Source: Apus apus (Eukaryota; Chordata; Aves; Apodiformes; Apodidae). Taken from it: a DNA stretch of 64,000 bases. Under the pieces are notes generated by a model. That model saw nothing but the letters and a program-made list of their open reading frames with translations. It made no database searches and had not been told where the DNA came from. The stretch covers positions 16,620,350 through 16,684,349 of the forward strand of contig NC_067286.1 in the NCBI RefSeq assembly GCF_020740795.1. Direction: 5' to 3'. A program made the position numbers and the translations under genes. How positions within the stretch are numbered: position 1 is the first letter of the stretch; every line of letters starts with the position of its first letter. Of this stretch, positions 377 to 55,536 are shown one piece after another.

Positions 377-467
377 CTCATATTTTTTCCTTTTGATCTG
401 CTCTGTAAAGTCATACTTTTCAGTCTCCAGCTGGTATAACCAGTCCCACAGTTCTTTAGCCTTGTCC
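377..467 (-). CDS. TNNT3: TNNT3 exon, start of troponin I-contacting coiled coil
   Basis: This 91-nt exon completes the arginine codon and encodes 30 codons, from DKAKELWDWLYQLETEK to TEQIKRKKYE. It has acceptor CACACAG and donor GTGAGTTGA. It opens the helix that pairs with troponin I in the I-T arm. It ends in phase 0, where the mutually exclusive exons normally follow. Confidence 0.96.
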
Positions 468-1326: not shown

Positions 1327-1437
<111 letters not shown>

Positions 1438-1499: not shown

Positions 1500-1775
<276 letters not shown>

Positions 1776-1989: not shown

Positions 1990-2067
1990 CGCAAGCCTGG
2001 CCTGACGCTCCTTCTCCTTCTCAGCTCGGATTCTCTGTTGCTCTGCTCTTTCAGCTCTGCGCTTCTC
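1990..2067 (-). CDS. TNNT3: TNNT3 exon, T1 charged helix
   Basis: This 78-nt exon encodes 26 codons, EKRRAERAEQ to KERQARLA, between TTTCAG and GTAAGTGGC. It continues the highly charged single helix of the T1 region. Both ends are phase 0. Confidence 0.97.
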
Positions 2068-2380: not shown

Positions 2381-2524
<144 letters not shown>

Positions 2525-3307: not shown

Positions 3308-3353
3308 ATCAAAATCTACTTTCTCACCCTCTGGTATTTTAGGAGCAGTTAGT
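3308..3353 (-). CDS. TNNT3: TNNT3 exon LTAPKIPEGEKVDFD
   Basis: This 46-nt exon runs from acceptor TCTGCAG to donor GTAAGTATT. After completing a lysine codon it encodes LTAPKIPEGEKVDFD, essentially invariant in troponin T and the start of the conserved core. It ends in phase 0. Confidence 0.96.
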
Positions 3354-4000
3354 CTGCAGAGAGTCAAAAACAAAAAGAACAAAAAAAGAGTATTTTAATC
3401 TTAAAGATCAGGTAGCTCTTCAAATAGCATGTCCAGACCTTATCTGCTCTGAAGAATGATGATGACAAGAAGAAATATTGCTGGAGATACAGAGGGGTGA
3501 AACAGCAAATCACTGGAAAACTATTCCAGAATAGCACTAAGGACCATTGTCCTTTGTGAGAGCTCATGCAGGACAGGGAGTTACCCCTAAAAACTCTTTT
3601 CACTCCCAAAGCCTGTGGTCATTCCCCACCACACAGAAAGACATTGTCCAGTGAGGCTGTCAGCGCGGTGCTGCGAACTCCTTTCTGGGCAGCTGGCAGA
3701 AAGGGAAGGAAGGAGCACCCATAACTTGGGGTATTGTGAGATGACTGTGTCTTGGACAGTTTGTGAGTCCTCTGACTCTATCAGTAGCTGGTCTTCAGAC
3801 CCTGACCAGTAACTATTGCTAAGGCATTCTCAGGCAGAAGCAGACATCCTGGAAAGGCATACAAGAACAGCTGGATGTCACACAAGGGAGGATTGAATAA
3901 AGGCTTCTAGTGGCAATTTGCCTAATAGACAATCTAAAGGCTTCTGCTAGATCAGGAAAATGATCCCACGGTTTTGAAACTCCCTGCCCGTCGTACTTAC

Positions 4001-4019
4001 TTGATTCTGGGCTTCTCCT
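4001..4019 (-). CDS. TNNT3: TNNT3 exon EEKPRIK (19 nt)
   Basis: This 19-nt exon has acceptor AACAAAG and donor GTAAGTACG. It encodes E-E-K-P-R-I plus two bases of a lysine codon completed in the next exon. It corresponds to the constitutive EEKPRPK segment; the isoleucine replaces the proline familiar from mammals. It shifts the phase from 1 to 2, so it cannot be skipped without a frameshift and marks the end of the cassette region. Confidence 0.9.
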
Positions 4020-7000
4020 CTTTGTTTGGTAACATGGCACAAAAGAGGAAGGGAAAAAGAGGGAGAAAAGTTAGAACAATAGAGATCATGCAGCTGCTAA
4101 AGTAAAAGGAGGGAAGGGAAATTCAATCTTAAGGGAAACATCCCAGATAAATTGGTTAAATTTCAAGCACTTACAAAAGAAATACACACACTCACACACC
4201 CCTTTTTTTCTAGGAGTGAATCTGCTTTTACCACTGAAACAGAATTTGGCAGAAAAAAATTAACAGACTGTATAAAAGTCCCAAACATAGCATCTGGAAG
4301 GCAATTGTTTCATGTAAATGCTAAATTATTTTTCTCAAACCATCCTGACCAAAGCTCTAAGTAGGACAGCTGGGCTGGAGGGTAGAAGAAAATGTTGCCT
4401 ATTTCAGTCACTACTTCTTTTGCTAAAGTAACCTGAATTTACAGTCGTGTCAATGATATCTGTGTTTCACCAGTTTTGCTCAAATGCCTCCCATGGAGGC
4501 CAGAGGGGAAAAAGCTTCACGACACATTTTCTCCAGGTTTACTGACTCCCAAGGTAGCTTGAAGCACATGTCCCTGAGATGCCTTGGTGCCCTGGGAAAG
4601 ACTTATTTTTCTGCACTGTTCCTCAAAACCAGCTTGGAAAGGTTATCCTCTCTTAGCAAGCATCTTCTTCCAAGGTACATGCAAAGTTCCCATGGGTTTT
4701 AACAGCAATGCTCTTTGCATCTCCAGGAGACGTATAATGCCCTTACAAGCAGGCTAGACCATGACAGAGCTGTCAGCTTTGGCCCCCTGGCAGTCAGAAG
4801 TGTTCCCCTACAACAAGTGACACCTTTCCCTGGCTCTCAGAAATGGGCTGTCTTAGGAGTTACTTGCTTAATATTTGTGCCTGTGATCAATTCCCCTCTC
4901 TGCTATGCACTTCAGTTCTTAACTCTAGTGTAACTGCAGTGAGTTCAGCACTGTTATTCTCACTAAAGGAAGGAAATTAAAACTGTGGGGTTTTTGGCCC
5001 CATCTCACAAGGACCCAGGTTGACTTTCATAACCACGTTTGAAATTTTAGGGATGCTGATGGATGCTACAGTCCAAGACTGCCTGTGTTGGTTCAGTGGA
5101 ATGAACTGAGGTAAAAAGCTCACAGCCTGCCGAATCTGTCAAAAAACAACCTGCTTTGTAAAGTAAAAGTAAAAACAGCCTCCCTCAGGAGTGGGTGCAC
5201 AAGCCCTGCTATCCATATCATGATACAGAAAGCTTTTATATTTATATTTTTTCAAATGCTGATTTGCATCCAGATGGTTTGGAACTGATGGAGGAAATTA
5301 GCAATAGCAAATGGAACAGAGCAGGATAAAATTAAATGGAACATTATATGAGGGGAAAAAAATAGCAAAATCTGTTACTGAAAAATATTTAGTGGAGACA
5401 TCACTTAGAAGGATGATGAATAATTTTAAAAAATCATGAAGCAGCTGGAAATGGGTTTTTGAGATAAGTAAGAGAAAAGTTATGAAAGATCAGAAACCAG
5501 CTTTTCCTTTCTCTCACACTTTCTCATACCAGTTTCAGTAATGAAATTTACATGAACACTGCCTACCAAAACGTATCTCAGCTGAAGCCTTGAGGTGCTA
5601 CAGCAATGCTAATAAAATAAGCAGCATGTAATTAGAAAAGTATTCTAGAGCACTCGCATAAAGGAAGCCACAAATTGCTCCTGAAGAAAACTAACATTAG
5701 CCAACAGTGTACTTCTGTATTTCTCCAGGTATTTGTTTCAGTTGTTTTGTTTTCAAATAGCCAGTGAGCTTCTTAACACATTAGCTAACTCATTGTTTTT
5801 TATCTGGAGAGTGGAAGAGTAATCACGATTAACCAGTCTATCAGGGATGTTATTCACACAGGATTTCCTTTCCCAGTGACATACCCAAATTATTTTGAGA
5901 AACATTCCTGTTAAACTTAAATGTGCCAGTTAGTGACATTTCAAAGGGGAAGGAGGAGGGTGGGAAGTAGAAATGAAATGACTAGTTTTGTTTGTTGACC
6001 TTGGTTGCCAGGATTGACACCTGTCTGTCAATAACTGTGAATTTGGTTTCAGCTGCTACCAATCAGTATTTTAAACTTAATTAAACCAACAAACAATTGG
6101 AATAATAATAAAAAGGTTAGTTTTTCTTGAAATATGAAATTTTAGTTAGAATATTTAAAGGTACCTCCATAAAAACAGAACATTGGGTAACAAAGAAATA
6201 GGAATTTTTATTAAAAGACAAACAGTAATAAATCTGTCTTTTGCAGTGCATGACCTAGCATGGTACATACTGTATGCACCAAAAGCAGCCCAGGATTGTG
6301 ATTTATTTTGAAATGCCCCTTCTTTCAAGACACCAAATCAAGGAACTGGGCCAAAATTTGTTGACAAGCAGGAATCATTATAGGAAATTCCTGTTCCTGT
6401 GGTGGATTTTGACTGACATTCTGGTCATTCTGCTTATGAACCATGGGGCTATGACAAAATCCCCACATACAACCCTGCCAAAAGAAGGCAAGAGCCACTG
6501 GAAATCCAAGTTCACTGCCCTGGAGATGAGAAATACTCTGAGTTTCTGGTTTCCAAAAAGGCTAGCTAGCACAGGGAGAACCCACACGACCGTAAATACA
6601 ACCTTACTTTCTCCTGCCCACTCTATGAAATGTTCACACATTGCTCCCCTTTTCTGTGAATCCATCTGAACTGTCTTCATTCAGAAATCCCTAAACACCC
6701 TCCATTAGTCCCACTTTTCAGAAGTAACATCTCAAGCTCACAGTGTGTCCTTGAAAAAAAAAGTAAAAAAAAAAAGAAGTCAAGATGCTATTAAAAATAA
6801 AAGGAAAAAGAGAAAAAGGAGGAGAGAACAAGGCTCAGAAAGGTCCTCAGGATTATTTCCCTAAATAAGAAAAAAACCTGAAAGTGAGCAAGAAAATGAA
6901 AACAAGTGAACAAATCTATGAAAACAGAACTAGAAAACACAGAAAATGCAGGTTGGCTTCAAGTGGCATTGGGCTTTGTCTTTGGAAACAGCTGGCCAGG

Positions 7001-8082
7001 TGTTCTAGGGGCTGAGACAGTCAGAATACAATGAAGCTACTTCAAAGGCCTATAAAAGTCATGAGAGTCTTTCTGTACATTTGAGCTGGTTTTGAACTTG
7101 GCCCAGGGGCTTTAAGTGATTTGCCCTCATGCAAGAGGAAAATTGACACACACATTTAAGATTTGGTCCTCTGAGTCTTGTCCTCACTCATGTGCTAAAG
7201 TGTCCACTCAACTACCTACTATGAGCACATCTGTTGTGAACACTGTCTTAAGCCAATGGCTCACCCCACCAGTATGAATAAATCTATGCACATACTTGAT
7301 GTTTAGTACAATTTTAAGTGCATGGCTGAAGCAGAAATTTAAATATCTGTTGATTCAGGCCTGGAGACCATGACCTTCTAAAGGTTGGGTGAGGCAGGCA
7401 TGTCTGTGTACAGCTCAGCTCCAATTTTAGGCCTGCCACTGGGATTTAAGAGATACTTTCCTTTCTGGCTAAAAGACAAATCCAGAGCAAGCTTCTAGAG
7501 CTTGATTTTCACCATGTGCTATCCTAATGAGAGTGTAGAGGCTTCTCAACACAGCAGTGAGATGCTCCAACCCGCGCCCAAGGGTGATTGGATATACACA
7601 GTAAGCAATTCTTTGCGGCAGAGATGCTTTGGCCCAGTTCCTGAGTTTAGAATCAAATGAGGAACAAAAACAAATACGGGGAGGAAGACATTAGAAAGAT
7701 GACTGTTGTCCTAAGACAACACTGAGCTACTATCATTGTATTCGCCTTCTTCATCAGCTGTAGGTTGAAGGATAAAAGCAAAAGAGAAAAAGCACAGTAG
7801 TCAATCCACAACAAGCACTGTTGTCTTAAAAGCAACTGTCCCCACTCTGTCCCTGCTATGCTGGGAACCTCAGACTCTCTGGAGATTGAATAAGAAGAAA
7901 CACCTTTTGGTGATTTGATTTGGCAAACATACAGCCCTTTTCTTCATGTTCATCCAAAGCCATCCAAAGAGACCGATTCCCTCCCACGCTCTCTTTGCTC
8001 TTGAACAAGTTCACTGTTTTTAACGCTGTTTCCCCATCACTGAAAGAGAAAAAAAGTGAAAGTCTGTAGGTGCATCACATAC
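4020..8082 (-). other. TNNT3 intron, no exon recognised
   Basis: This is the 4.1-kb intron between the mini-exon array and the EEKPRIK exon. I searched the minus strand for short phase-1 exons with GTATGT, GTAAGT or GTGAGT donors and found only donor-like words without a fitting acceptor (for example near 5880 and 7275). A fetal exon is known around here in some birds and mammals; none is evident. Confidence 0.55.
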
Positions 8083-8100
8083 CTTCCTCAGGGGCTTCCT
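8083..8100 (-). CDS. TNNT3: TNNT3 mini-exon EEAPEE (18 nt)
   Basis: This 18-nt exon has acceptor ACCAGCAG and donor GTATGTGAT. It encodes EEAPEE via a split glutamate codon. EEAPEP-type blocks occur before EEVQEEEKPRPK in mammalian fast troponin T, so this is probably the orthologue of one of those exons. It closes the array; a 4-kb intron follows. Confidence 0.87.
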
Positions 8101-8513
8101 CTGCTGGTGTTGTGGTACAAGCAGTGTTGGGAAGACAGGAAATTGGAAAAAAGAAACAAACAAGAAACAGAACAGATATTTAAAGTTCTTGGACACCTGA
8201 GAGACTAGGGAATGCATGAAGGGGGGGGAAAAAATAAAGGAATTAGTGAATTAAAGCAAGGAAAAAAGGTATCTGGAGAGGCTGTCAGGAGTTAACAATG
8301 CTGTAAGGTTAAAGTAGTAGTAAGCATGGAGATTAAAGGAGAAAAGGGCTGCAAGTGATCGTTGTGGTTAATATTTTTTTCTCATGTTTTGTTCTCTTCA
8401 ACCAACCCAAGACTCCTGTTCTCGGCTCGTGCTGTCACTGTCTCTCTCTCACACAGACACGCACACACTTGCATTGCAGCTAGCTGGAATACATCAGAAG
8501 TCATGTCACATAC

Positions 8514-8525
8514 CTGGCTCTTGAG
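8514..8525 (-). CDS. TNNT3: TNNT3 mini-exon AQEP (12 nt)
   Basis: The exon is CTCAAGAGCCAG after acceptor CACCTGAAG, with donor GTATGTGAC, and reads A-Q-E-P. The acceptor-side intron (CATGACACTTCACACCTGAAG, one base differing in length from the related site at 17233) is nearly the same as that of the first array member. It is the last 12-nt copy in transcription order. Confidence 0.86.
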
Positions 8526-9713
8526 CTTCAGGTGTGAAGTGTCATGGAACAAGGTGCAATGGAAAATAAGAGAATGAGAAACCTGTTATTTCACACACCA
8601 AAAAAACTTTTGAACCAAAGGAGAGGAGGCGCAGATAGGAAAAGGGGACAGGAGGACCAAGTTAAAGAGTAAACCTGAGATAAAAGAAATTAATTATATT
8701 TGAAATAGCATATAAAAGAAGTCACAGGACAGGAAAGGAATTCAGTCAGGTGAAAGCGGCAGATTTACAATAATACTGCAATGCTTAAAAAAAAAGAGCA
8801 TTATATGCCACGAGGTACAAACTGACAGCATGGTGTACCAAGGCTTATCTTGATTTGAAATATGCCATGAACACAACACTCCCAAAGCATTATTAGAGCC
8901 ATCCTTTCCTATAGCAGTATCTCAGACACTTAAACACAATGTGGTTCAGAAACCTACTGAAATACCTACTGTAACTCAACAATGTGCAGCTGACTTCCAA
9001 AGAAGATCAGTTCTTTTTTCTAGATCTATGGCTAAAGGCCATTTTGTTCCTTGAAGACAACTTGGATGTAAATAGAAGTCTAATGTTGTTCTTCGTATCC
9101 ATTTGCAATGAAGAATTACAAATGGTTACTTCATAGGAAGAAAATGTTCATTAAAAGTCTCTGCAGGTCTACATTTCATTCTTCTGGGGTTTTTGGCAAA
9201 ACAAGAATCAATCAGCAATGTGGATTTGTGGAGCAGATTTTGCTTTTTAGTCATACACACACTACTGAATATTTTGCAACACAAGCATGAAAATAATGCA
9301 AAATCTCACAGTATTTATATTCCCTGTATACAGTCAATGGGTCAAATTCTGTCCTGAGATTTGAAACTAAGATTTCACTATAGGAAGAAACATTCATTTT
9401 CCCATCACAGTCCATAATTTAACCCATTTCACAAGGACACTTTCTGCTGAGCTGCTCTTTCACAATCATGTATATGTTCCCCTAGTTGTTAGTAAAATTT
9501 TCATGCAAGAGGTAAGTTTCTTCCTACTCAGTGCTGAATACATTTTAATGAGAAAAAAACCCCAACAAACTATCAATAAAACAACCCCAAAGGCATGCAA
9601 ATTAAAAGCTATCATTGATAGATAGGTTGTATCTCCTGTCACCTTGCATTCGCTTCCCACACACACTGTCCCACCAGCCAGACACTGGGGAGTTTAGAAG
9701 TTAAATCACATAC

Positions 9714-9725
9714 CTTGAGGGGGGG
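9714..9725 (-). CDS. TNNT3: TNNT3 mini-exon APPQ (12 nt)
   Basis: The exon is seven C's followed by TCAAG, after acceptor AATGAAG, with donor GTATGTGAT. It reads A-P-P-Q, replacing the acidic residues by prolines. A CTAATTC motif lies at 9783-9777. The C7 run is prone to slippage, and one base gained or lost would shift the frame in any mRNA that includes it. Proline-rich blocks are found in avian fast troponin T N-termini, so a functional exon is plausible. Confidence 0.8.
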
Positions 9726-10612
9726 CTTCATTTAGTAGGAAGTGTCAGGGGAAAAACATAGGGAAGGAAGATAAAAGAATTAGAAATAAGTTATTCAGGA
9801 GGGGATCACCTCAAACTTTGGTAAGATTGGGTTGAAGACTAGGTTATAGGAATTGAGTGTTAATGAGTGGAAAAGGAGAGTAATTACAGTGGAGCATGAA
9901 GTAGACAGGGAGGGAATGCCATAAAAATGAAAGATAAAAGGAATTTGGATGCTGATGAATTGCAACAATTTAAATCATGCAAATATATAAACAGTGGGCA
10001 ATTGTAGCGGTGCTGGTGATGCTTAAATTTGAAAGGAAACACGCCCAAGGAGAGAGTTTTGCAAGTGTGCAGTGTAACTTGTGTCTCAGCTATGCACGTG
10101 GCCTCCTAGCTGTTGGAGCAGCTGTGAGGATACTGCAAGGAAAGAAGGCTTTGAACGTATTTCTTCATTGGCATCTGAAGCTCCACCATCTCAGATCCTC
10201 CACTGGCAAACGTGAGGCTTAGTTAGCTCTGCAGAACTAGAAATATTCCCATCTACACATGGCTTGTCTCTGCTGCAAACAAGTAGAAACCGCTCGAGCC
10301 TGCGTGCCAGGATCCTGCTGCAGGTGACACCTGCGAGCAGAAGCAGCTTGTGTTTCTGTAGCTCAGGTTCCTGCTCTCTGCCCTGGCTGCAGCAGAGTCA
10401 CAGCCCTGAAAGTTTTCAGGGGGACTAAAATGTTTCCTCTAAGCTTAGAAGGTGACTTTCCAGTTACAAACAGCAATTATCCTTGTTCAGTAGGGAAAAT
10501 TAATTTTAGGGAATCATAAAAATAGATTGATTCTTCATGACTTTGGTTTTCTTCAACATCTTCAAATTCCTATGTACAGGAATGGTTCAGATTAATGCAT
10601 AGGAATTTGGAT

Positions 10613-10626
10613 GTCACATGCATGTG
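10613..10626 (-). pseudogene. TNNT3: Decayed TNNT3 mini-exon
   Basis: This site matches the array in its flanks: ATGTCACAT on the plus strand downstream, TTAGGTGGAAAGTGTCAGC on the acceptor side, and the CTAATTC branch-like motif at 10671-10665. The exon body is collapsed. Between the AAG acceptor and the relic donor only CACAT remains, and the donor has changed from GTATGTG to GCATGTG. Five bases would break the frame, so this copy is very unlikely to be used. It shows that the array once had at least one more 12-nt member here. Confidence 0.72.
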
Positions 10627-12291
10627 CTTGGTTAGGTGGAAAGTGTCAGCAAAGAAAAATAAAGGAATTAGAGCAAGAATCATACAACAGCAACAACTCT
10701 GAAGTTGTGCAGGCCAAGGCTGTGACTTCGAAGATGGATCAGACAAAGACAGTATTAATAACAGAGAAACTAATAATAATACAATTACTTGAAAAGCTGG
10801 GATGGTCTCCCTCTCACATAAAAGTTTTCTTTTAAGTTTGTTCTATTTACCTCTTCTTTATAAACTTTCTTTTTGTTATGCTTTATGTTACTGAGGGAAA
10901 AGAAAATATGGGGAGACTGTAGGTTTGGCTTTATTGTTAATCAGATTACACTACTACCTGGTGTTTTGCACAAATTTCAAGCACATATGAATGGTAAAGC
11001 TTGAGACCAACACTCAAGTAGTGAGTAGCAATTCAATATATACCGGGGGAAAGAGATACAGAGGCAGACAAAGCAGCTGGAATGGTAGCAATGAACTTTA
11101 ACTTGTGCAAACCAAGGTCAGAAAAACCCTAGGAGCAAGTAACAGACAGTAATGAATATCATTAAAAGGAAAAGAGAAGGATATGAGATGAGAAGCAGCA
11201 AGGACAGGAGGGAAATGAGAGGCAGCACACAGATGAATGTTGAAGTGTTAAGTCATGCAAAAATCAATCAGACAGCTTTCACCTCACTCACTCCAATCCT
11301 AGTGAAAGTACTGATCTCCTGTAAGCTAAGAAGCTGTTCTCCCTCTGTCGACAGCAGACTGAAATAGCTGGGATGGGAAGCTGCTGAGGTATGACTGCTT
11401 TAATAAAGCTACTCCAAATGGCACAGAATAATTTTCACAGACCATTTAGAGGACACTGCAAGTTCATCCTCTGCTTTTCTAGATCATAAACATTATAACA
11501 TTCCCATGTGCAGTATAAGGATGGCTCTGACTCCAGTGTCTATAATTACAGCTTATATGTTGGGATATTTGTTTACAAAAATGTTACTACCTTTTTCATG
11601 CAACAGTTAGCTCTTATCTTCATTATTATGCATCACAGAGTAGAGGAAATTATTACTGGTGGAAAGTGTAAGGAAGCTGAAAGTTACAGTTTGACATTAA
11701 TATTTGATTTTTATTTGCTGTCTTCCACCATCTTTGAATTCCTGAGTATAATTTTAGAGTTACTTGTACAATTTTCCAACAGAAACTGTAGTTTCAATTA
11801 AATTTCAGTATTTCAAAAGTCATGTAGATTTAGCTAAGATTTGTGTTAAAAAACAGATGCACTTTAACAACCATTAAAGGTTGCATAGATATTAACATCT
11901 TTAGAACAAAACTTTCATTTTTTGCCATGTAAAAATCTGTTATTGCAGATTTGTTCTTGCATTACACTATATATACTCCACATAATCAATAAAATAAATG
12001 TCTCAGAGACATCTAAAACAGAATTTTCATTCAAAATTTGGAAATCTTCCATAAAGAAAAGAAAAAAAATGTTGGAACAAAATGTTTTGTTTCCAGTAAA
12101 TAAAAAAATAATTTTCATCAGCTGCCAAACAAGGTTGTTCCTCCTTTTTTCTTTTTTTGTTGTTGCTTTAAAAAGTTTCCATGTTGTCCCAATTCAGAAC
12201 ATGACCCAATTGTAAAATTGCCAAGTGCAATTGAATTTCCAGCACACAATAACCCTTCAGATTGACGCAGAGGAATTCAGAAGTCACATAC

Positions 12292-12303
12292 CTGGTTCAT
12301 GGA
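12292..12303 (-). CDS. TNNT3: TNNT3 mini-exon VHEP (12 nt), tandem acceptor
   Basis: The exon is TCCATGAACCAG with donor GTATGTGAC and reads V-H-E-P. The acceptor is again AAGAAG, allowing an optional extra glutamate. A CTAATTC motif lies about 50-56 nt upstream (12359-12353) in a good position for a branch point. VHE-type blocks occur in avian fast troponin T, which supports a real exon. Confidence 0.85.
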
Positions 12304-13679
12304 CTTCTTTAAGAGGGAGGTAGCAGGGAAGGAGATGCAAAGAAAGATAAGAGAATTAGAGCAAGAAACAAAGGATGATTAAAAAAAAAAAACACCTTAC
12401 AATATTTTTAGCCAGTGTGAAGGGGTTAAAGGGATAAAAACCATTAATAAGATTAAAAGATGAATAGAGGGCATATATGGATGTCAATCGTGGATAGGAA
12501 GGACAGGGGGTGTTGGGAGATAAAAGGTGCAGATGACTGACATATCTATTCATTAAGTTATAAATCAAGTGCCATCAGTAGCCTTTGGTTGATGAGTGTA
12601 TTTACTTGTATCTAAATCAAGTCCATTACCCGTAAGTTTGCATGCACAAAAAGGGTATGGACAACCTGTTCTTATTTATGTGCATAAAAATCCCAGCCTC
12701 TGCAGAAATCAATGGGCGTGGAGGAGCTGGCATTGATTTTCTTAAGGCCCAGGATTTCCCCAGTGGTGTGTAGGACTGCACCCGAGGTGGGAAGGTGATT
12801 GCAAGCACGTTACTGCTGTCCAACCTGCGGTGTAAAGTATCCAATGAAAGCCTAGCTGGGCATGCAGAGAAGAGAGGGCAGAAGGGCAATCGAAAGGTAA
12901 ATGGGTTTGGGCTGGCAGGCTGATGCTTCAGTAAGCATGTCCTACTATTTTTCTAATCACACAGGTTGTCTTACTAAATCTGGACTTTAATTCACATTAT
13001 AAAATCAAGCAAAAATGCAACCCTGCTACCCCATTTTTGCATAATGTGCATTAACCCAGAAAAACATCACTAGTTATGGGAAAAGCATGCAGCTACATTT
13101 TTTCTTTGACTTGGCATTTTCTAGAAACACATTGCAGTCAAAATATCAAAAATATAAGTCCAATCCTTAGACCAACAGAAAACTAGGTATGACACAGTGT
13201 CACTTGTTGCTTATGACTTCAGATGCAAATCTGTCCACACCAGCAGACATTGCTGCCAGAGCCAGTTTTGTCTCTGTGCAGTGGCAGGGGAACAGGAGGA
13301 AGAGGCACACCTGACAAGGGACATAGCATTGCCACAGGCCATGGCTGTCCCACCTCCAGCCCTGGGGCATGATCTAGAGGAAATGCTTTTGGGACCACTC
13401 TTTCCATATCAACTGGCATCTGTACCCATAGTTTAGTTAGAGAAATCAGAGTGCTGGGGAATATATAAGCCGTGCCTAGCCTGTGCTTCTGGCATTGCCT
13501 TCAAAACCGCAGTTAGTACTGATTACTCATCATGCTGCTTATCCTACAAGAATGAAGCAGCCATTGATGAGCATGCAGAGGATGGTTTTGCATCCTCTCC
13601 TCTTCAGCTACCTCCAGAATTCCTGCACACACTACCACTTTGGACAGAAACAGAGGAATTTGCAGGTCATGGCACATAC

Positions 13680-13691
13680 TTTCCTCATGAG
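13680..13691 (-). CDS. TNNT3: TNNT3 mini-exon AHEE (12 nt), ends in A
   Basis: The exon is CTCATGAGGAAA after acceptor TGCTAAAG, with donor GTATGTGCC. It reads A-H-E-E. Its last base is A where every other array member ends in G, which weakens the donor and turns the first residue of whatever exon follows from Ala, Val or Glu into Thr, Ile or Lys. AHEE recalls the His/Glu peptides of the galliform Tx segment. It is clearly homologous to its neighbours; whether it is spliced in is unknown. Confidence 0.8.
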
Positions 13692-14644
13692 CTTTAGCAG
13701 GTGAGAAGAGCCAGAGAGCAAAATGCAAAGGAAGGCAAGAGCATTAGAAATATCAGGACAGCCTTTCACTCATACAAAGGGGAGGGGGAGGGAAAACCTG
13801 AGAGTATATTGCAAGGAAATAAAATTAACATGGATATGAAAAGGACTACTAGAAGTGAGGGCACAAATGGTCTGAGATATTAATTACATAAAGCTGATTT
13901 AAGTGGCCATGACATTTGTCTTGTACGCATATTCCTTCAGTCCTGCATAAAGCCAGGAGCAGCATGCCATTTTACAGCCCTGATGCTCGCCCAAGTGGAT
14001 TTACAACCGGAGGCCAGCACGTTTTTGGTGGCACATGGCTGCTCGTACTACCATGAGACAATGGCCTAGACACTCCATTGCATGAAGAAGTAAACCATCT
14101 TTAATCATCTGCAAAGCTAAAGCATCGAAAAGACCACCAGTTGCTTTAAACAATGGGGTTCAAGCTGGAAAAAAAGGCATGTGGAAAGGCTATGGTAAGA
14201 ACATCAGCCCAGTAAAGGAGGGCAGATCCTCTCTGCAGCTGCAATGTCAACAGCTGCTGTAGCAGCAGACTGATTGTGGGCATATCTACACATTGTCCAG
14301 AGCCCCAAGCTGCTCTGAATGGTCCAAAATAAGCCTCCCAGGGAGACCCAAGCAGTCTCGGAGAAAAAGCTTTTCAATATTCATCCTTTTAAGAGGTTTA
14401 CATTTCCCAGCAGTTTTCATACAATCTTTTTTTTTCATGCAACAGTTACCACATAGCATCACAGGTGCATTCAGTGTCAAGACAGAACATAGAGGAAAAG
14501 AGTACAAAAGCCAAAATTGTGGAGAGCTTTATTCTGTATTAATATGCCTATCTTTAACTGCTGTTTCCTTTTACCATCTTATGGCTTACTGGCTAAAGCA
14601 GAGCTTACTCTGAAAGATGGGAAATCAGGACTCATGACACATAC

Positions 14645-14656
14645 CTTCCTCCTGAG
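14645..14656 (-). CDS. TNNT3: TNNT3 mini-exon AQEE (12 nt), tandem acceptor
   Basis: The exon is CTCAGGAGGAAG with donor GTATGTGTC and reads A-Q-E-E. The acceptor is a tandem AAGAAG, so use of the upstream AG would add three bases and give E-A-Q-E-E while keeping the frame. The acceptor-side intron is closely similar to that of the exon at 13680, about 1 kb away, suggesting a comparatively recent tandem duplication. Confidence 0.86.
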
Positions 14657-15181
14657 CTTCTTTAGGTGGGAAGAGCCACAGGACAGGATGCAAAGGAACA
14701 TTAGGAGAAACACATTATTACATGGGCTGATATTACATAGGCTGAATGTTCTGTTAAGTCAGAGGGAAAAGTTTCATCCCAGTAAAGGATGGAGTAATGC
14801 CCAGAAGGGAAAGGGATTTGAGGCATGTAAAAGGAACAGGGAAAAATCTAACAATAAGCTCAAATAGCACATGCTGAAATTTCCCTCTAATTCCAGTTTT
14901 ATAAGATCAACCTCCTGCCATTGCCCAGATGGGCTTTATGGCAAGCTCTGCACATGGCAGGAGAGGCTGGGTTACCACCAAGCCAACATCTGCTGGACCT
15001 TTCACCGAGACCATTCCCATATGTTAGCTTGTGGCAGGGCCAGTCATTGAAGAAAGGAGGAAAGCAAAGACAACAGAAGAAACAAAATGAAGTAACTGGG
15101 TGCTGCTACTCTCACCACCCCTAAATACCCCATCACCATCAAGGAGATGGTAGGAGCAATACAGAAGGCAATGACACATAC

Positions 15182-15193
15182 CTGCTTCTTGAG
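15182..15193 (-). CDS. TNNT3: TNNT3 mini-exon AQEA (12 nt)
   Basis: The exon is CTCAAGAAGCAG after acceptor TGACAAAG, with donor GTATGTGTC. It reads A-Q-E-A. It differs from the AQEE copies by a GAA-to-GCA change that removes one acidic residue. It lies only 450 bp from the exon at 14645, the tightest spacing among the 12-nt copies. A purine-rich minisatellite (15311-15378) lies just upstream of it in transcription order. Confidence 0.85.
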
Positions 15194-15310
15194 CTTTGTC
15201 AGGCAGGACGTGGTAGGGAGCAAGAGCAATGAGATGGAAAATGAGAACAGTTAGATTATAGGGGATATGAATGCAACAGGGGCTCTAAAAAACACAAGAG
15301 GCATGAAATT

Positions 15311-15378
15311 GAGAAACACAGGAGATGAAACAGAGAAACAGAGGAGATGAAACAGAGGAACAGAGGAGGAGATGAAAT
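15311..15378 (+). repeat. Purine-rich minisatellite, three units
   Basis: Three head-to-tail units of 22, 22 and 24 nt (15311, 15333 and 15355), each of the form GA(A/G)-rich plus GGAGATGAAA, lie in the TNNT3 intron just upstream of the AQEA mini-exon. On the transcribed strand they are pyrimidine-rich. Confidence 0.8.
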
Positions 15379-15728
15379 GGAGACAAGCAACCAAAGCACG
15401 CACAGGTACAAGAAATGTAAAACCTTCAGGATCTGGATGCTGTAAAAACCCTGCAAACCACTCAGAGTGGGTGTCCCACACTGTTATAAATAGGTTTGCA
15501 CTTGTTTCAAGTGTGGCTGGAGCACAAAGCTTTGCAAATGCAGAACCAACACACCCTTTGGCTCCTTCTACCTGGAGCACTACATCCCAAACCTCTCAAG
15601 TGCAAAGGGTGGGTTTCTGTTCTATCCTCTCATCTGTCCTGCCTGTCCTACTTTTCAAATGCCACGTGCAGTGCAGGGAGCCTGCTGGGGTTACTGAGCA
15701 TCTACAGGGATATAATTAATAAAATCTG

Positions 15729-15900
15729 AAGTATTATTGTTCATATCATATATAATAATATATATTATAGTCTATAAACATATATCCCTTGTACTATATA
15801 TAATATTACATATAATATGTAATATTACCATCTATAGACTTACATATATGATATACTCTCTATTATATTAGGTACTGTAGAATATGTACTATGTAACATA
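15729..15900 (+). repeat. AT-rich, TATA-type low-complexity tract
   Basis: About 170 bp made almost only of A and T, with repeated ATAT and TATTATA words, inside the TNNT3 intron between the 16340 and 15182 exons. A similar AT-rich tract occurs at 16935-17035. No gene signal. Confidence 0.75.
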
Positions 15901-16339
15901 TGGCTACACAGATATCTTACCACAGATGGATTTTTATTTCAAAATCCATCCACTCATTATCTGTCAAGCTACATAGAAGAAACCAGTTGACATCTGATGG
16001 AAACCCTTCTAGCCAGATCCCAGCAATTCCACAACAGGTGTTACAAACATCCAGGGCTAAAAACCAGCCTTGGAGCCTGCTGTGGCTTGGATGAGGGGCT
16101 GGTATCCTTATTTCCCCTGCTGTTCCCTCCCTGAAAGGGAGCAGAGGTGTCAGCAGAGATACACGAGGCTACGGGCACCATGTGCAAAGGACAAGAAAAG
16201 CCCTGTGCTTGCAGATCATCTGTCCCAGCATCTTCCTCTTGCCTCTTGTTTTCTTCTACTACCTTGCAAAGTGGAGGTGCACAGCAGCTCCAAGCCCTGC
16301 TGTGCGGGTAGAGGGGGGCTGAGAAACTGGTGCACATAC

Positions 16340-16357
16340 CTTCTTCTTGAACCTCTT
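16340..16357 (-). CDS. TNNT3: TNNT3 mini-exon EEVQEE (18 nt)
   Basis: This 18-nt exon has acceptor CCTGCAG and donor GTATGTGCA. It encodes EEVQEE via a split first codon. The peptide resembles the EEVQEE block of mammalian fast troponin T. The CAG acceptor is stronger than the AAG acceptors of its 12-nt neighbours, so it may be included more constitutively. Confidence 0.88.
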
Positions 16358-17221
16358 CTGCAGGTGGAAAACAGCAGCAAAGGGAACAGGAGGAGAAAAT
16401 TAAAACAAGAATTATCTTTTTGGAACATTCTTGAGGTTTGCCATGCTCCCAGGCCATTATGGAGAAGAATACACAATGATGGAATTACAGGGTGAGAAAG
16501 AATTAAAAATAACATGTTTTTATGAGCATATTATGGGGTTATACATGTTACTGAAATATGGGAATGTGACCACAAGTGAAAAACACATTAAAAAAGGCAT
16601 CCACTATTTTATTCTTTATTAGAGCTGGCTGAAATTTCCTAAAACTGACTTTTGGTGAAGGCAAAACAAAAAATAAAATTGCCACATTTGTTTTAAATCT
16701 TTTTCTGAAATGGTGATATTTTTTTGCCAACATAAATCTATTTTTGAAATTTCAAAGAAATTCATTGCTGAATTTCAACAGGTGGATATAAACTTTGCAG
16801 GGTGTTGTCTTCCCTTTTTAAAAAAATCTAAACTTTTGGTGTGAAAGAAAAGGACTTGACACTGTTGTGACCAAAAAAAGGCCAGTAGTTCAGTAAGAAT
16901 GGTAGGCCAAAATAAATACATGTATTTGTTTTCATATGCATATATGCATATACACATACATGTATATGTATTTATTTAAAAATTATATATGTGTATTTGA
17001 TATATATTGTTTTATATATTTTTGTTTGTTTTTTTTAAACAAAACATCAGGTCAAATTTCCTACCAGCTCAATAAGTTACATCAATGTCTGTTATTGCAT
17101 TGATGTCTGTGGCTCAGGACCACATCCCGGCCACTGGGAGTGAACCATTTGCTCTGGATTTCTTCACACACATTCTTCCTCTACAATGAGAGAGAAAGAA
17201 AGCAAGAGCCATGTCACATAC

Positions 17222-17233
17222 CTTCTTCCTGAG
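17222..17233 (-). CDS. TNNT3: TNNT3 mini-exon AQEE (12 nt)
   Basis: The exon is CTCAGGAAGAAG between the acceptor CACCTGAAG and the donor GTATGTGAC. With the G carried over it reads A-Q-E-E and leaves a final G. It is the first array member in transcription order. Its acceptor side (ATGACACTTGCCACCTGAAG on the minus strand) closely matches that of the exon at 8514, so these two may be the closest relatives although they are 8.7 kb apart. Mammalian TNNT3 also has an AQEE exon near this place. Confidence 0.88.
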
Positions 17234-18852
17234 CTTCAGGTGGCAAGTGTCATGGAACATGAAGCAACAGCAAGCAGGAAAATGAAAATAGAAAACTGTT
17301 AGAGAATGGTATTGGGGTGAGCTCAGGCCTGGGGAAAAAATGTGGTTAGAAAGTGATGGAGAGAAGTTATATGGAAAGGAAATTGATGACTTGGGAAGAT
17401 AACACAAAGGTCAAGCAAAAGTGGACAGTGAGAAGATACACCTCAGAGGAGATTGTCATGCAGATTAATTAGGAAGTTACCTGCCTATTAATTTCATATT
17501 AATCATTAAATTCTTGAAACCCAAAAGGAAACAGTTAAGAAGGGAAGGAGAAAGAAAAGAAGAAATGCTTCTCCTTTCAGGAAGACTTGTCTGTAGGCTT
17601 AACACCCTTTGCTTGCTCTTTGGACATTTGACAAGGCATGAAGGATGGAGCATGAATACTACCTTCACCTCCCTGGCTCTGCCCCTTCAGGCAGGACTAC
17701 AAACACGTTGATGACTGAAGGCACCTCTGCAACCCATGTGGCATCACTACTTTTCTTTTTTTGAGCCCTTTATCCCCTTGCAAGCAGTACTGGGGAATTA
17801 CAGACATAAGGCAGAGGGGAGACTTCCTCTCCTCAGGGGAGGAACTACTCTGGGCACGCCCACAATCACATCTCTGTTACCACCACCACTGATGAGAATT
17901 AACCAGTTGCAGCAATTTGGGGAAATCTGTGGCGAAAAAACCCCAACAACACACTCAACTGCTGTATATAAAATCCTTAAGCTGGACATTTCTGCACAGG
18001 GGCAAGTCTCTGTCTCAGAGCTGGCCTCATACCCTTCACATGCAAATATTCCACCTCCCAGTGAAGGGTTTTGCTCTTGACCCCTTAGAAGCTCTCTTGG
18101 ATACCAAGGGCAAATTCTGGGAGAAATCCCAGAGTTTGGCCTTCACCTCTGTCCCAGACATCTTGGGAAAACGGAGGATGACAACCAGCAGCTACACTTG
18201 TCTGAACTAAAGCCAGTCTGTTTAAAGTGCCCAGCAAAGACACCCATACATCTTCAAAATCTTCCTCTCCTTGCTGCCTACAAAAGCTGAAACAACTCAG
18301 GTGAGAAGGGCTTTTCATGCTCCATCTTTCCAGATCTGCGCTCTGTCTCTCACAGCTTGTCAAATCACCTTTTGCCAGCTAAAAGCACATTTAAACAATT
18401 AATCTTCGCCAGTCGGTTCTCTCCTTCACCTTTTCCAGGCTTTGACAGGGCCTTGTTGGGTGCTCCGCAGGAGCTGGGCAACCTGCTCTTCTTTTCAGTT
18501 TCAAAGTTTAAACTCAAGACGTGGCCATGGCCCAAATGAGGATGGTAGGATATGACCAATGATACGATGTGTGGGCTCTGTGCCAGTTCCTGTTCTGAAA
18601 CGCTCTGAGTTTACAGCCATTCCCTGCAGCTCACACAAATACTGAGTGTAACCATAACATGAAGGCTCAGGCACATCACGGCCCCAACTTGGGTGGTTTT
18701 TTGGTTCCCTATTGATTAATTGATCAAGTGTTTCAGATCACCTTTAGTGGCAAGCGCCAAAGAGAAGGGTGAAACACAGACAAGGAAAAAGCAGGACCAA
18801 GAATCAAAGAAATATAAATTACATTCCCAGGTGGTTTTGGGTTTTTTTTTAC

Positions 18853-18870
18853 CTTCTTCTTCGTATTCCT
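18853..18870 (-). CDS. TNNT3: TNNT3 exon 4 (EEYEEE), 18 nt
   Basis: This 18-nt exon has a TGCAG acceptor and encodes EEYEEE through a split glutamate codon. The EEYEEE block is typical of fast skeletal troponin T. The donor GTAAAAAAAA is weak and runs into a homopolymer, unlike the GTATGTG donors of the array that follows, so inclusion may be regulated. Confidence 0.9.
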
Positions 18871-19553
18871 CTGCATTGAAACAGGGGAGGGGGGAAAAAA
18901 AGCAGACAAATCAACCATCAGCCTTGACATGTTGGCAGGACATTACCCATGGCAGAGCCCTGTGCACTCACAGGGATGCCGAGCAAGATGGCCTCTGAGA
19001 GGACACTTCCCATTCAGCAAGTAAAAGAGCAAATAAAATGACTTTGAGAAAAAAGAGGAAGTATAGAAGGGGAGGAGGTCACTATCATTTTTTTTTTTTT
19101 CCTTGGGCAATGGGAACTCAGGCATATATGCAGGTTAGAAGGAAATAGGTGACAGAGGGACCCTTTAAGTAAAAAAAAAAACAAAACAGCAAAGAAAACA
19201 AACTTGTACATTTCTGTATCGATTTTTTTGTATATATTGTGGGTTTCTATGTTTTTTTTAAAAAACGAAATATTTAAAAGCGGCAAAATAATTGCCAGCA
19301 GATGGCAGTGCCCCTACAAAAACCAGCAGCGATCCCCACAATCACGGCATCAGTTTGGGGCTACAAGTAGTGGAAAATCAGCGGAAGCTGGTGACAGTCA
19401 GAGTCACATGCAAAAAAAAAAAGATATTTCAGATGTGCCTAACCGGATCAGCAATTGCTGTTAAAATATCAACAATGGGCAGAAAGGAAAAGACAGACAG
19501 AGCCAGCAAATGCTGCAGGTTTGCACAGAAGCAGAGATGGATTCAAGACTTAC

Positions 19554-19567
19554 CCTCTCCTTGTTCC
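19554..19567 (-). CDS. TNNT3: TNNT3 exon 3 (EQGE)
   Basis: This 14-nt exon lies between CTTGCAG and GTAAGTCTT. It completes the valine codon of exon 2, encodes EQGE, and leaves one G for the next codon. From here until the exon at 4001 every exon starts and ends in phase 1, so the cassettes can be skipped or combined freely without breaking the frame. This matches the MSDTEEVEQGE-type start of fast troponin T. Confidence 0.9.
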
Positions 19568-20189
19568 CTGCAAGAGAGGAAAAAAGATTATAGAAAGTAG
19601 ATAAATATTTGTTCCACTTCATATTGTCACCAGGCTTTAAATCACATACTGAAGCAGCAGAATGCACTATAGAAGTCTGTTGTTTCTTCTCTCCCCCATT
19701 CTTCCTTTGCTCTTCTAGCAGCCATTTGGTTTCAAGACTAATAAAGTGAGTGGGTTTAGATTTTATTTTAAATATTGCTCCTCATTCTGGTGGTACATAT
19801 GGCTCCATGCCCAGGAATAATCCTACTGCCACGGGGCTTTAACATGACACCTATACATAAGCACTGTACTGATGAAGCTGGACCTCAGCCCTGGTGTGCC
19901 AGGCAAGCCAGTCAATGGCCCACACCAACCCAGATGTGCTACAGGCTCCCTGAACCTTAGACTGTCTAATAAAAATTTTGGATAAGCCAGCTGATGCTCA
20001 ATATTTATCCTGTGGCTGCAGCAACATCAGTGTTGTGGTCTGTTCCCATTCCTTGCCCCCACTTGCTTCTCCTGCTCTACCATCACCTCGCATGAAACTC
20101 AAAGCCCAGAGCAGCCCTTGGGCCAGACCCTAATCAAGGAACATGTTAGTTAGAGATTGCTTGAAAAAGGTGCCAAATCTCATCTTGGG

Positions 20190-20217
20190 AAACTTTTTTT
20201 TTTTTTTTTTTTTTTTA
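20190..20217 (+). repeat. Poly(T) run in TNNT3 intron
   Basis: A long uninterrupted T run followed by AAAC in the intron between exons 2 and 3. There is no recognisable retroposon body next to it. Confidence 0.7.
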
Positions 20218-20697
20218 AACAGCAGGCAGGACAAAATTACACAGGTTGAGCTGAGCCTGCCTCGTAGCAGAGGAGGGGACCAAGTGACCATTGCAGGTCT
20301 GTCCATGACACCTCTGATCCCATGATTGCCCTACATCCCTGTACCTACTGATGCATAAATGTCAAATCATCCCGCTCTGTTTGGTCATATCATTCTAGAT
20401 TTCAAGTGTGTGTTTAATTCCCCCTCCTCCAGGTGTAGTGCCATGGCCACTGAGGACAGGCTGAGCTGGGTGGAGGTATTTGGAGGGCATCCCCTGTTGG
20501 ACAGGGAGGGTGTCAGCTGAACTTTCATGAACCCTTTGACATCCAAAATCCAAGATGCTTCTTCCCCACTGCCTCGGGGTGCTTTGGACCATGCATCGAG
20601 TAGTACCCAGCCTCTCCTCCTGATGGGGATACCCTCCCTCCTCTGCATGAAGCCAAGCTGAACAGATGAACATGCAGGCGGCTTTCTCTCTACTCAC

Positions 20698-20717
20698 ACT
20701 TCCTCGGTATCAGACAT
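20698..20717 (-). CDS. TNNT3: TNNT3 exon 2, start codon (MSDTEEV)
   Basis: The exon runs from 20732 (acceptor TTTAG) to 20698 (donor GTGAGT). Fifteen bases of 5' UTR precede ATG at 20717. It encodes MSDTEE plus the first two bases of a valine codon, the hallmark start of fast skeletal troponin T. The ATG has an A at -3. It ends in phase 2 and joins the G that opens exon 3. Confidence 0.95.
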
Positions 20718-20732
20718 GTTTGCAGTGAGTTC

Positions 20733-30838: not shown

Positions 30839-32780
30839 CATAGTATCATAGAATCAAAGTTGGAAAAGACCTTCAAGATCATCAAGTCCAACTGTCTGCC
30901 CTACAATCCCTAACCACTAAACCTTCTCCCAAAACACCATGTCCACCTGTTTTTTTAACACCTCCACCACCTCCCTGGGCAGCCTGTTCCAATGCCTCAG
31001 CACTCTTTCTGTGAAGAAGTTTTTCCAAATATCCCATCTGAACTTCCCTTTGTGCAACTTGACCCCATTTTCTCTTGCCCTATCGCTGGTCACCAGGGAG
31101 AAGAGGCCAACACCCGCCTCACTACAACCTCCTCTCAGGCAGTTGTAGAGAGCAGTGAGGTCTCCCCTCAGCCTCCTCTTCTCCAGGCTGAACAGCCCCA
31201 GCTCCCTCAGCCTCTCCTCATAAGACCTGTTCTCCAGACCCCTAATCAGCCTAGCTGCCCTTCTCTGCACCCTCTCCAGCACCTCAATGTCCTTCCTGTA
31301 CTGTAGTGCCCAGAACTGCACACAGTGCTCGAGGTGCAGCCTCACCAAGGCCAAGTACAGGGGCAGGATCACCTCCTTGGTCCTGCTGGTCACACTATTC
31401 CTGATGCAGGCCAGGACACTCTTGGCCTTCTTGGCCACACTGCTGGCTCATGTTCAGCTGGCTGTCAATCAACACCCCAGGTCCCTTTCTACTGAGCAGC
31501 TCTCCAGCCACTCCTCCCCTCACTCTATCCCCTCATCCAAGTCATCCATAAAGATGTTAACCAGGAGCAGCCCGAGCACTGAGCCCCGGGGAACACCACT
31601 CCTGACCTGCCCTAACTGGATTTAACTCCATTCAACACAACTCTTTGGACCCAGCCATCCAACCCATTTTTTATCCAGTGAAGCGTGTGCACATCCAAGC
31701 CAGCAGCAGCCAGCTTTTCAAGGAGAATGCTGTGGGAAACCTTGTCAAAGGCCTTGCTAAAGTCAAGGCAGACAACATCCACAGGCTTTCCCTTGTCCAA
31801 TAAGCAGGTCACCCTGTCATAGAAGGAGATGAGGTTAATCAAACAGGACCTGCCCTTCATGAGCCCATGCTGACTGGGCCTGACCACCTGGTTGTTCTGC
31901 ATGCACTGCATAATGGTACTCAGGATGATCTGCTTCATCAGCTTCCCTGGTACTGAAGTCAGACTAACAGGCCTGTAATTTCCTGGATCATCCTTCCATC
32001 CCTTCTTGTATATGGGGGCTACATTGGCTGACTTCCAGTCTGCTGGTACCTGCCCAGTCAGCCAGGACTGATGGTAAATGATAGAAAGAGGCTTGGTGGG
32101 CACCCCCACCAGCTCTTTCAGCACCCTTGGGTACATCCCATCTGACCCCACAGATTTGTGCTCATTGTTGTGGTGCAGCAGGTCACTGACCATCTCCTCC
32201 TGGATTGTGGGGGGATCGTTCTGCTCTGGTCCCTGTCCTCTAGCTTAGGGAGTTGGATTCCCTCAACATGACTGGTCCTGTTATTAAAGACTGGGGCAAA
32301 TAAGTCAGCCTTTTCCTCATAATCAGTCACCATGTTTCCTCCTGCATCTAATAGGGGATGGAGGGTCTCCCTGGTCTTTCTTTTGTTGTTAATATATTTA
32401 TAGAATCTTTTCTTGTTGTTCTTTACCATGGAGTTCAGATTAATTTCCAGCTGGGTGTGGGACCTTCTAATTCCCTCCCTGCAGAGTCTCTCAGCATTTT
32501 TGTAGTCATCCTGAGTGGCCCGCCCCTTCTTCCAAAGACCATAGATACTCTTTTTCTCCCTGAGCACCAGCCAAAGCTCCCTGTTTTGCCAGGCTTGTCT
32601 TCTATGCCACTGGCTCACCTTGCAGCACATGGGGATGGCCTGCTCCTGAGCCTTCAATACTTCCTCCTTGAAGAGCGTCCAGCCTTCCTGGATTCCTATA
32701 CCCTTCAGAACTGATTCCCAAGGAATTCTGGCAATCAGACTACTGAACAAGATAAAGTTTGCCCTTTGGAAGTCTCAAAG
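30839..32780 (-). mobile_element. CR1 LINE, defective copy with pol remnants
   Basis: A 1.9-kb CR1 retrotransposon lies on the minus strand, its 3' end near 30840. The plus strand starts ATCATAGAATCAAAGTTGGA, the usual CR1 3'-end motif. Reverse transcriptase remnants occur in three open pieces: 32118-32750 (WKKGRATQDDYK, NKRKTRETLHPLLDAGGN), 31612-32193 (NYRPVSLTS, CLDFSKAFDKVSH) and 30917-31438 (C-terminal [20 protein letters not shown]). The frame is broken between pieces. Just after the segment encoding GVPQG-like and DDLDEG-like residues (about 31500-31620) the sequence jumps to the C-terminal part, so the central catalytic FADD region is deleted. It is 5'-truncated and cannot be active. 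Confidence 0.93.
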
Positions 32781-54838: not shown

Positions 54839-55340
54839 CTGAGTGCAGAAAATTAACAAGCCAGGGAGTGAGCTGGTCAAAATGCAACCAAAGGGATTTT
54901 CCTCCTGTCTCCCAGGCTTCCTGCTTTACACTAAACAAACACATGAGCATAGAAACTTTGAATTCATATCACCTAATTTTGAAAGATCCAGGAAGAAGCT
55001 CATGTGTTGATTTGGGGAAAAAAAAAAATACTAAAGATTTTAGCAGCTCAACCACCCCAACAGACCAACACACCACTCAAGTTCCAGCTTTGTCTCTTGT
55101 TTAACAGGAATTATACCTCATCAGAAGAGCAAAGAAAGAAAACCTCAGCTGGGAGAAATGCAGGATTTAGAGATACATCAAGCCGAAGTGCTCCAAAGGT
55201 GCATTAAAGTATGGGGAGAGGAAAACAAGGAGCAACATTTCAATTTGAGTTCTGAAGAGCTAGCCACTGCCCACAAAACCACAGGAGAAATAATAGCACT
55301 TTCCCTCTCAGCATTTCAAGGACATGACTGGTGATCCCAC

Positions 55341-55536
55341 CTCTTGCTTGGCTCTCTCCTCATCCTCCTGCTCTTGGACCTGTTCTTCCTCTCGGCTCAG
55401 CCTTTCCTCCTCCTCAGTAACAACATTTTCCTCCCGAATCTCCTCCAGGCTTTCCTGATCCAGTTCGATCTGCTCCAGTTTGACTTCGGCTTCCCTCACG
55501 CCACCGTCCTCTTCTTCATATGACTGTTGTGGAAAC
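55341..55536 (-). CDS. LSP1: LSP1 exon, Glu-rich acidic region
   Basis: This 196-nt exon has acceptor CCTCTAG and donor GTGGGATCA. It encodes 65 codons, from FPQQSYEEEDGGVREAEV to QEQEDEERAKQE, rich in Glu and Gln and probably helical. It corresponds to the poorly conserved acidic part of mammalian LSP1. The assignment follows from phase continuity on both sides and composition. Confidence 0.9.

Follow-up and report, generated by a model that had tools for sequence, protein, structure and literature searches.

The window analysed here, a stretch of 64,000 nucleotides (nt) of a 1.10 Gb genome (C6:16620350-16684349), carries on its minus strand the troponin T gene TNNT3, and a run of very short exons in the 5' part of this gene raises the question of whether such an array corresponds to the P exons described for chicken, represents a separate expansion, or is largely a collection of relics. 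A first-pass annotation had described it as a ten-copy mini-exon array, related to extra exons of galliform birds but independently shaped. Judging from the sequence, we consider it very probable that the array represents the region of alternative N-terminal exons in bird TNNT3, homologous to the chicken P exons and their neighbours. It consists of tandemly duplicated units, each an exon with about 100 nt of intron, that share one phase and an unvarying donor within a complete TNNT3 reading frame.

Nine in-frame mini-exons are present at 8083-17233 (minus strand), each with AG upstream and GTATGTG downstream (9/9) and all of phase 1-1. In transcript order they encode AQEE, EEVQEE, AQEA, AQEE, AHEE, VHEP, APPQ, AQEP and EEAPEE, which agrees in peptides, order, phase and donor with the first-pass description. 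They are listed below in this order; all are placed by splice sites and by the array profile, and a to g also by alignment with chicken.

17222..17233, minus strand: mini-exon a, AQEE (chicken AHEA position)
16340..16357, minus strand: mini-exon b, EEVQEE (chicken EEVHEE position), with a 15-nt alternative, EVQEE
15182..15193, minus strand: mini-exon c, AQEA (P-exon place)
14645..14656, minus strand: mini-exon d, AQEE (P-exon place), with a 15-nt alternative, EAQEE
13680..13691, minus strand: mini-exon e, AHEE (P-exon place), last base A
12292..12306, minus strand: mini-exon f, VHEP (12 nt, 12292-12303) or EVHEP (15 nt; chicken EVHEP position)
9714..9725, minus strand: mini-exon g, APPQ (chicken APPP position)
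8514..8525, minus strand: mini-exon h, AQEP
8083..8100, minus strand: mini-exon i, EEAPEE

An exon scan of positions 3400-20600 (phase 1-1, 9-39 nt, donor GT[AG][AT]G, at least 75% E, D, Q, H, A, P and V) yielded these nine exons and the alternative acceptors belonging to them, plus a single additional candidate of 9 nt; by its donor rule the scan does not reach exons whose donors differ, exon 4 for instance. The extra candidate, EEE at 17172-17180 (minus strand) with AG and GTGTGTG, follows directly after exon a, is probably due to chance and was not counted as an exon. Several mini-exon boundaries are uncertain by at least 3 nt. Exons b, d and f each offer a second acceptor at a distance of 3 nt, and exon i has three in-frame choices that would also allow 12 or 21 nt besides 18 nt. 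For exon f the acceptor is perhaps the earlier AAG, giving EVHEP, the form found in chicken, so that the sizes of 12 or 18 nt annotated at first may need amending even though all nine exons were recovered. Seven of the nine acceptors are AAG, a weak type. The donor of exon e scores lowest of the nine (1.6, the others 5.0-5.7) with matrices of the Shapiro-Senapathy type, whose scores are fit for ranking only. The join after exon e encodes K, T or I, and joins after the other exons encode E, A or V; because its final A alters the residue with which the following exon begins, the mini-exons are not fully interchangeable.

The assignment to TNNT3 is borne out by the joined protein. The reading frame gives a troponin T of 279 residues when exon 4 and the full set of mini-exons are included, and one of 232 residues when exons 2 and 3 are joined straight to exon 8 and those after it. 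The joined protein matches Pfam Troponin at 1.2e-29 and the PDB chain 1ytz_T, labelled fast skeletal, over its whole 107 residues (194.9 bits, 2e-56); other fast skeletal chains follow at 9.5e-45 (2w49_1, 89 residues) and 6e-26 (2z5h_T, 55 residues). The five top PDB matches, all of cardiac troponin T, are 285-295 residues long and score 245.8-264.7 bits; they outrank the fast chains and exceed in length every fast chain among the matches listed. Counterparts of the alternative exons 16 and 17, IVTLRNRIDQAQK and ILTMRCRLQELSK (41 nt each), are present in the adjacent stretch (locus L010), and troponin-domain exons lie on the same strand at C6:16713162-16714063, roughly 90 kb away from the TNNT3 match. 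These presumably belong to TNNI2, given the synteny of TNNI2 and TNNT3 described in PMC9825255.

To what extent the copies are related was assessed with a profile built from exons a, c, d, e, f, g and h and their flanks, the seven copies most alike. In a leave-one-out test every omitted copy was recovered (7/7, E 7.5e-8 to 1.9e-23), and since the profile includes the flanks, the introns of these seven copies are related too. The full seven-copy profile also matched i (1.3e-8), b (2.3e-7) and a decayed copy, so that ten copies are true relatives:

10589..10679, minus strand: decayed tenth copy, profile E 8.2e-7; exon mostly gone and donor GT replaced by GC (by eye)

Exon 8 was a weak match after a gap (E 0.015), the next places on the same strand reached 0.23 and 2.1, and the best on the opposite strand only 0.33. 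The donor heptamer GTATGTG occurs ten times in 10,101 nt, nine times at the exons and once in AT-rich sequence, whereas 100 dinucleotide shuffles averaged 0.6 occurrences and never exceeded 3. On the strength of the leave-one-out test and this donor count, a chance origin of the array was rejected. A BLAST-type search of the genome, with a single 151-nt unit as query, returned nothing but the unit itself, a result that carries little weight, as the other array copies were missed too.

When the seven copies are aligned, every pair agrees at all seven donor bases, while mean identity is 0.88 over the four acceptor bases, 0.62 in the exon, 0.54 in the upstream flank and 0.35 in the 38 downstream columns beyond the donor. 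Identical donors beside diverged downstream columns point to selection on the splice sites, and introns that drifted far while donors and frame were kept speak for the mini-exons being in use. Aligned flanks agree at just 38-55% of positions in the 21 copy pairs, so most duplications look old. They are not all equally old, however, since the units of exons d and e agree at 81% over 67 nt, and the exon h unit (8488-8580) agrees with the exon a unit (17196-17288) at 75% over 93 nt, although the two lie 8.7 kb apart at opposite ends of the array. Three alike intron stretches without an exon (9471-9527, 11566-11622 and 14431-14461; best 84% over 31 nt) gave no match to the array profile and are perhaps traces of larger duplicated blocks.

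Published work credits the avian TNNT3 P exons to Miyazaki et al. 1999 and Jin and Samanez 2001 (via PMC5062619, PMC7581897 and PMC11016001), locates up to seven of them between exons 5 and 6, close to the w and y exons (PMC5062619, PMC7581897), and describes their inclusion in pectoral muscle as a post-hatching event (PMC7581897). The first 80 residues of an avian fast troponin T are printed within the chicken discussion of PMC11016001, in the order AHEA, EEVHEE, histidine-rich repeats, EVHEP, APPP, EEKPRIK, and we inferred the exon boundaries within them. AQEE, EEVQEE, (E)VHEP and APPQ align with non-P parts of this N-terminus, AQEA, AQEE and AHEE (c, d and e) occupy the place of the histidine-rich P repeats, and AQEP and EEAPEE (h and i) are extra, with no clear counterpart in the printed segment. 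The tandem, phase-matched mini-exons appear to lie between exon 5-like and exon 6-like exons, a place read from this one chicken protein. When all 512 in-order subsets were aligned with it, a-g and the full nine tied for the top score, and 12 of 2520 orders of the seven exons a-g, the real order among them, scored as well, which agrees with the kinship to galliform extra exons suggested at first. Because chicken has seven P exons and only about three mini-exons stand in the P place here, the array is not larger than that of chicken; the ten copies stand as nine related exons and a decayed one, four of the nine aligning with non-P parts, and the view of a special ten-copy array is not supported.

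Some points weigh against so direct a homology. Random orders of all nine exons match chicken equally well in 352 of 5000 cases, the a-g set was chosen after the scores were known, the fit rests on one protein, and a one-to-one correspondence with the chicken exons is moderately supported. Furthermore, the use of any mini-exon in this species is something we infer, and the calcium binding that bears on function was measured on chicken breast troponin T (PMC7581897, PMC11016001), not on a histidine-poor one.

An expansion within the lineage, independent of the galliform P exons and separately shaped afterwards, would account for the scarcity of histidine in the peptides (2 of 41 residues; the printed chicken segment has 17 of 55), which the first-pass annotation had also remarked on, and for h and i standing without a chicken counterpart; the closer a/h and d/e stretches imply that some duplications came later, and emu is said to lack the P segment (PMC7581897). 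We nevertheless regard such an origin as unlikely, as the strongly diverged flanks make most duplications look old and EEVQEE, (E)VHEP and APPQ stand in the order of chicken, and for the same reasons the notion of an independently shaped array is not supported.

It is likewise improbable that most mini-exons are relics that are rarely spliced, with only canonical ones included. The splice sites lend this idea some substance, given that the seven AAG acceptors reach matrix scores of at most 0.1 and the CAG of EEAPEE only -4.2, that exon e has a weak donor and that one copy is already broken. Against it stand nine donors identical at seven positions and the absence of frame breaks (0/9) amid strongly diverged introns, and the acceptor of exon 8 is also AAG, which makes this type no sign of disuse.

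If the array is the P-exon region of a bird TNNT3, its mini-exons would act as cassette exons included in different combinations according to muscle type and age, on the model of chicken pectoral muscle. The included exons would add 0 to 41 residues to a flexible acidic N-terminal tail, with a net charge of about -7 to -23 (K, R, E and D counted, before KPRIK, exon 4 apart). By analogy with chicken, the lengthened tail would tune the tropomyosin-binding or middle part of troponin T, and it may weakly hold calcium. The expectation that any subset keeps the frame proved correct, since all 512 subsets (exon 4 omitted, f taken as 15 nt) read through to the normal C-terminus. They give 480 distinct proteins of 232-273 residues, and with both forms of f allowed, 1024 combinations give 720 distinct N-termini (exon 4 apart). 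The hundreds of N-termini annotated at first are therefore borne out as arithmetic only; in chicken, 11 fast troponin T isoforms are reported at detectable expression (PMC11016001).

Nine splicing-motif patterns were counted in 10,101 nt around the array and in 100 shuffles. TGCATG occurred 12 times (shuffle mean 5.6; 5/100 as high), a CELF-like pattern 21 times (13.5; 1/100), GCATG 16 times (12.1; 15/100) and a pattern derived from the units' own upstream text four times (1.1; 1/100), while ACTAAY, CTAAT, YGCY and TCTT showed no excess in this region, being at or below expectation. We take TGCATG, ACTAAY, YGCY and TCTT to be motifs of RBFOX, QKI, MBNL and PTB, respectively; because nine patterns were tried, no splicing regulator is claimed.

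A further function to be weighed is the metal-binding Tx cluster of chicken breast muscle. The genome's mitochondrial cytochrome b is identical at 346 of 380 positions to chain 1bcc_C, presumably from chicken, and together with globin matches identifies the genome as that of a bird. Alpha-A globin fragments scored slightly higher with chains 1faw (213.8 bits), 3wr1 (210.8) and 3eok (209.7), presumably from goose, cormorant and duck, than with 3mjp (208.0) and 2qmb (207.5), presumably from quail and turkey, a difference too small to decide the order of the bird; the six best rows of this search were fused human-type chains that matched twice. A tRNA scan of the second mitochondrial piece yielded one gene and did not narrow the order further. 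The Tx cluster is a feature of Galliformes and Craciformes, and PMC8990283 calls it absent from other species. The position in the gene would fit such a cluster, and the direct join of exons e and f creates a single candidate zinc site, HEEIH or HEEKVH (HExxH and HExxxH each in 128 of 1024 combinations). The repeat H(E/A)EAH, in contrast, is found in none of the nine mini-exon peptides, and no more than two histidines occur in any of the 1024 combinations. As this count is too low, a chicken-type cluster can be set aside as wholly improbable, and the histidine-poor tail should not form one. We also consider it very unlikely that splicing would switch a metal site on, off or in its spacing, with His-Glu-x-x-His or His-Glu-x-x-x-His arising only on direct e-f splicing and the 3-nt acceptor shift choosing between them. 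Since one or two putative zinc sites are stated to be detectable in fast troponin T of many other birds (PMC11016001), the e-f site does not go beyond printed knowledge.

This kind of array is already known from chicken, and what is found here is a histidine-poor avian TNNT3 P-exon region. Its shared phase is not new either, having been noted for human TNNT3 (PMC2447309). In the literature consulted, with subscription journals mostly outside it, there was no DNA-level account of P exons for non-galliform birds, although Jin and Samanez 2001 may well cover them. Provided that the age suggested by the flanks is correct, P exons may predate the galliform histidine-rich cluster, as plain acidic spacers, and a histidine-poor set helps to separate the effects of charge and length (calcium holding, change in neighbouring parts) from metal binding.

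The exons placed inside the window are 2-4, the nine mini-exons and 8-14; the adjacent stretch contains the last exon along with two alternative C-terminal exons. The set starts with exon 2, which carries the start codon and follows the untranslated first exon.

20698..20732, minus strand: exon 2, start codon, MSDTEEV (joined reading frame)
19554..19567, minus strand: exon 3, (V)EQGE (exon scan and joined frame)
18853..18870, minus strand: exon 4, EEYEEE, 18 nt, phase 1-1, donor GTAAAA (joined frame); no match to the array profile
4001..4019, minus strand: exon 8, EEKPRIK, AAG acceptor (distant profile match)
3308..3353, minus strand: exon 9, LTAPKIPEGEKVDFD (joined frame)
2408..2524, minus strand: exon 10 (genome match and joined frame)
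1990..2067, minus strand: exon 11 (joined frame)
1641..1754, minus strand: exon 12 (joined frame)
1328..1437, minus strand: exon 13 (joined frame)
377..467, minus strand: exon 14 (C-terminal exons past the window start)

Elsewhere in the window, a 210-residue frame of a retrotransposon of the long interspersed element (LINE) type lies at 31615-32244 (minus strand); 165 residues match Pfam RVT_1 at 5e-17, and we take the element to be CR1. The frames beside it at 30920-31447 and 32121-32774 had no Pfam match. A Glu-rich open frame at 55311-55556 (minus strand), likewise without a Pfam match and located between the TNNI and TNNT3 exons, might belong to LSP1 or PRR33 from its position (synteny, PMC9825255).

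Querying the genome with exon 10 returned two places, TNNT3 and a troponin T gene on C24 that is presumably TNNT2 (here called TNNT2-like); TNNT1 was not found by this query, and is perhaps absent from the assembly or has diverged too far. The TNNT2-like gene is a paralogous troponin T but differs from TNNT3 in that a profile search of 30 kb found no copy of the array unit (best E 0.18). Mammalian TNNT3 resembles the gene studied here in the alternative 5' exons 4-8, which in human mostly fall into one phase class (PMC2447309), and in exons 16 and 17, which have counterparts here, whereas, in the passages cited, P exons are described for birds only. The closest likeness is to the avian P exons themselves, which are also tandem mini-exons, apparently in the same place of the same gene, encoding acidic peptides that start with Ala. 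Chicken has seven of them where about three stand in the P place here, and its five-residue AHH[A/E]E contrasts with the four-residue AQEA, AQEE and AHEE of this genome, which contain almost no histidine.

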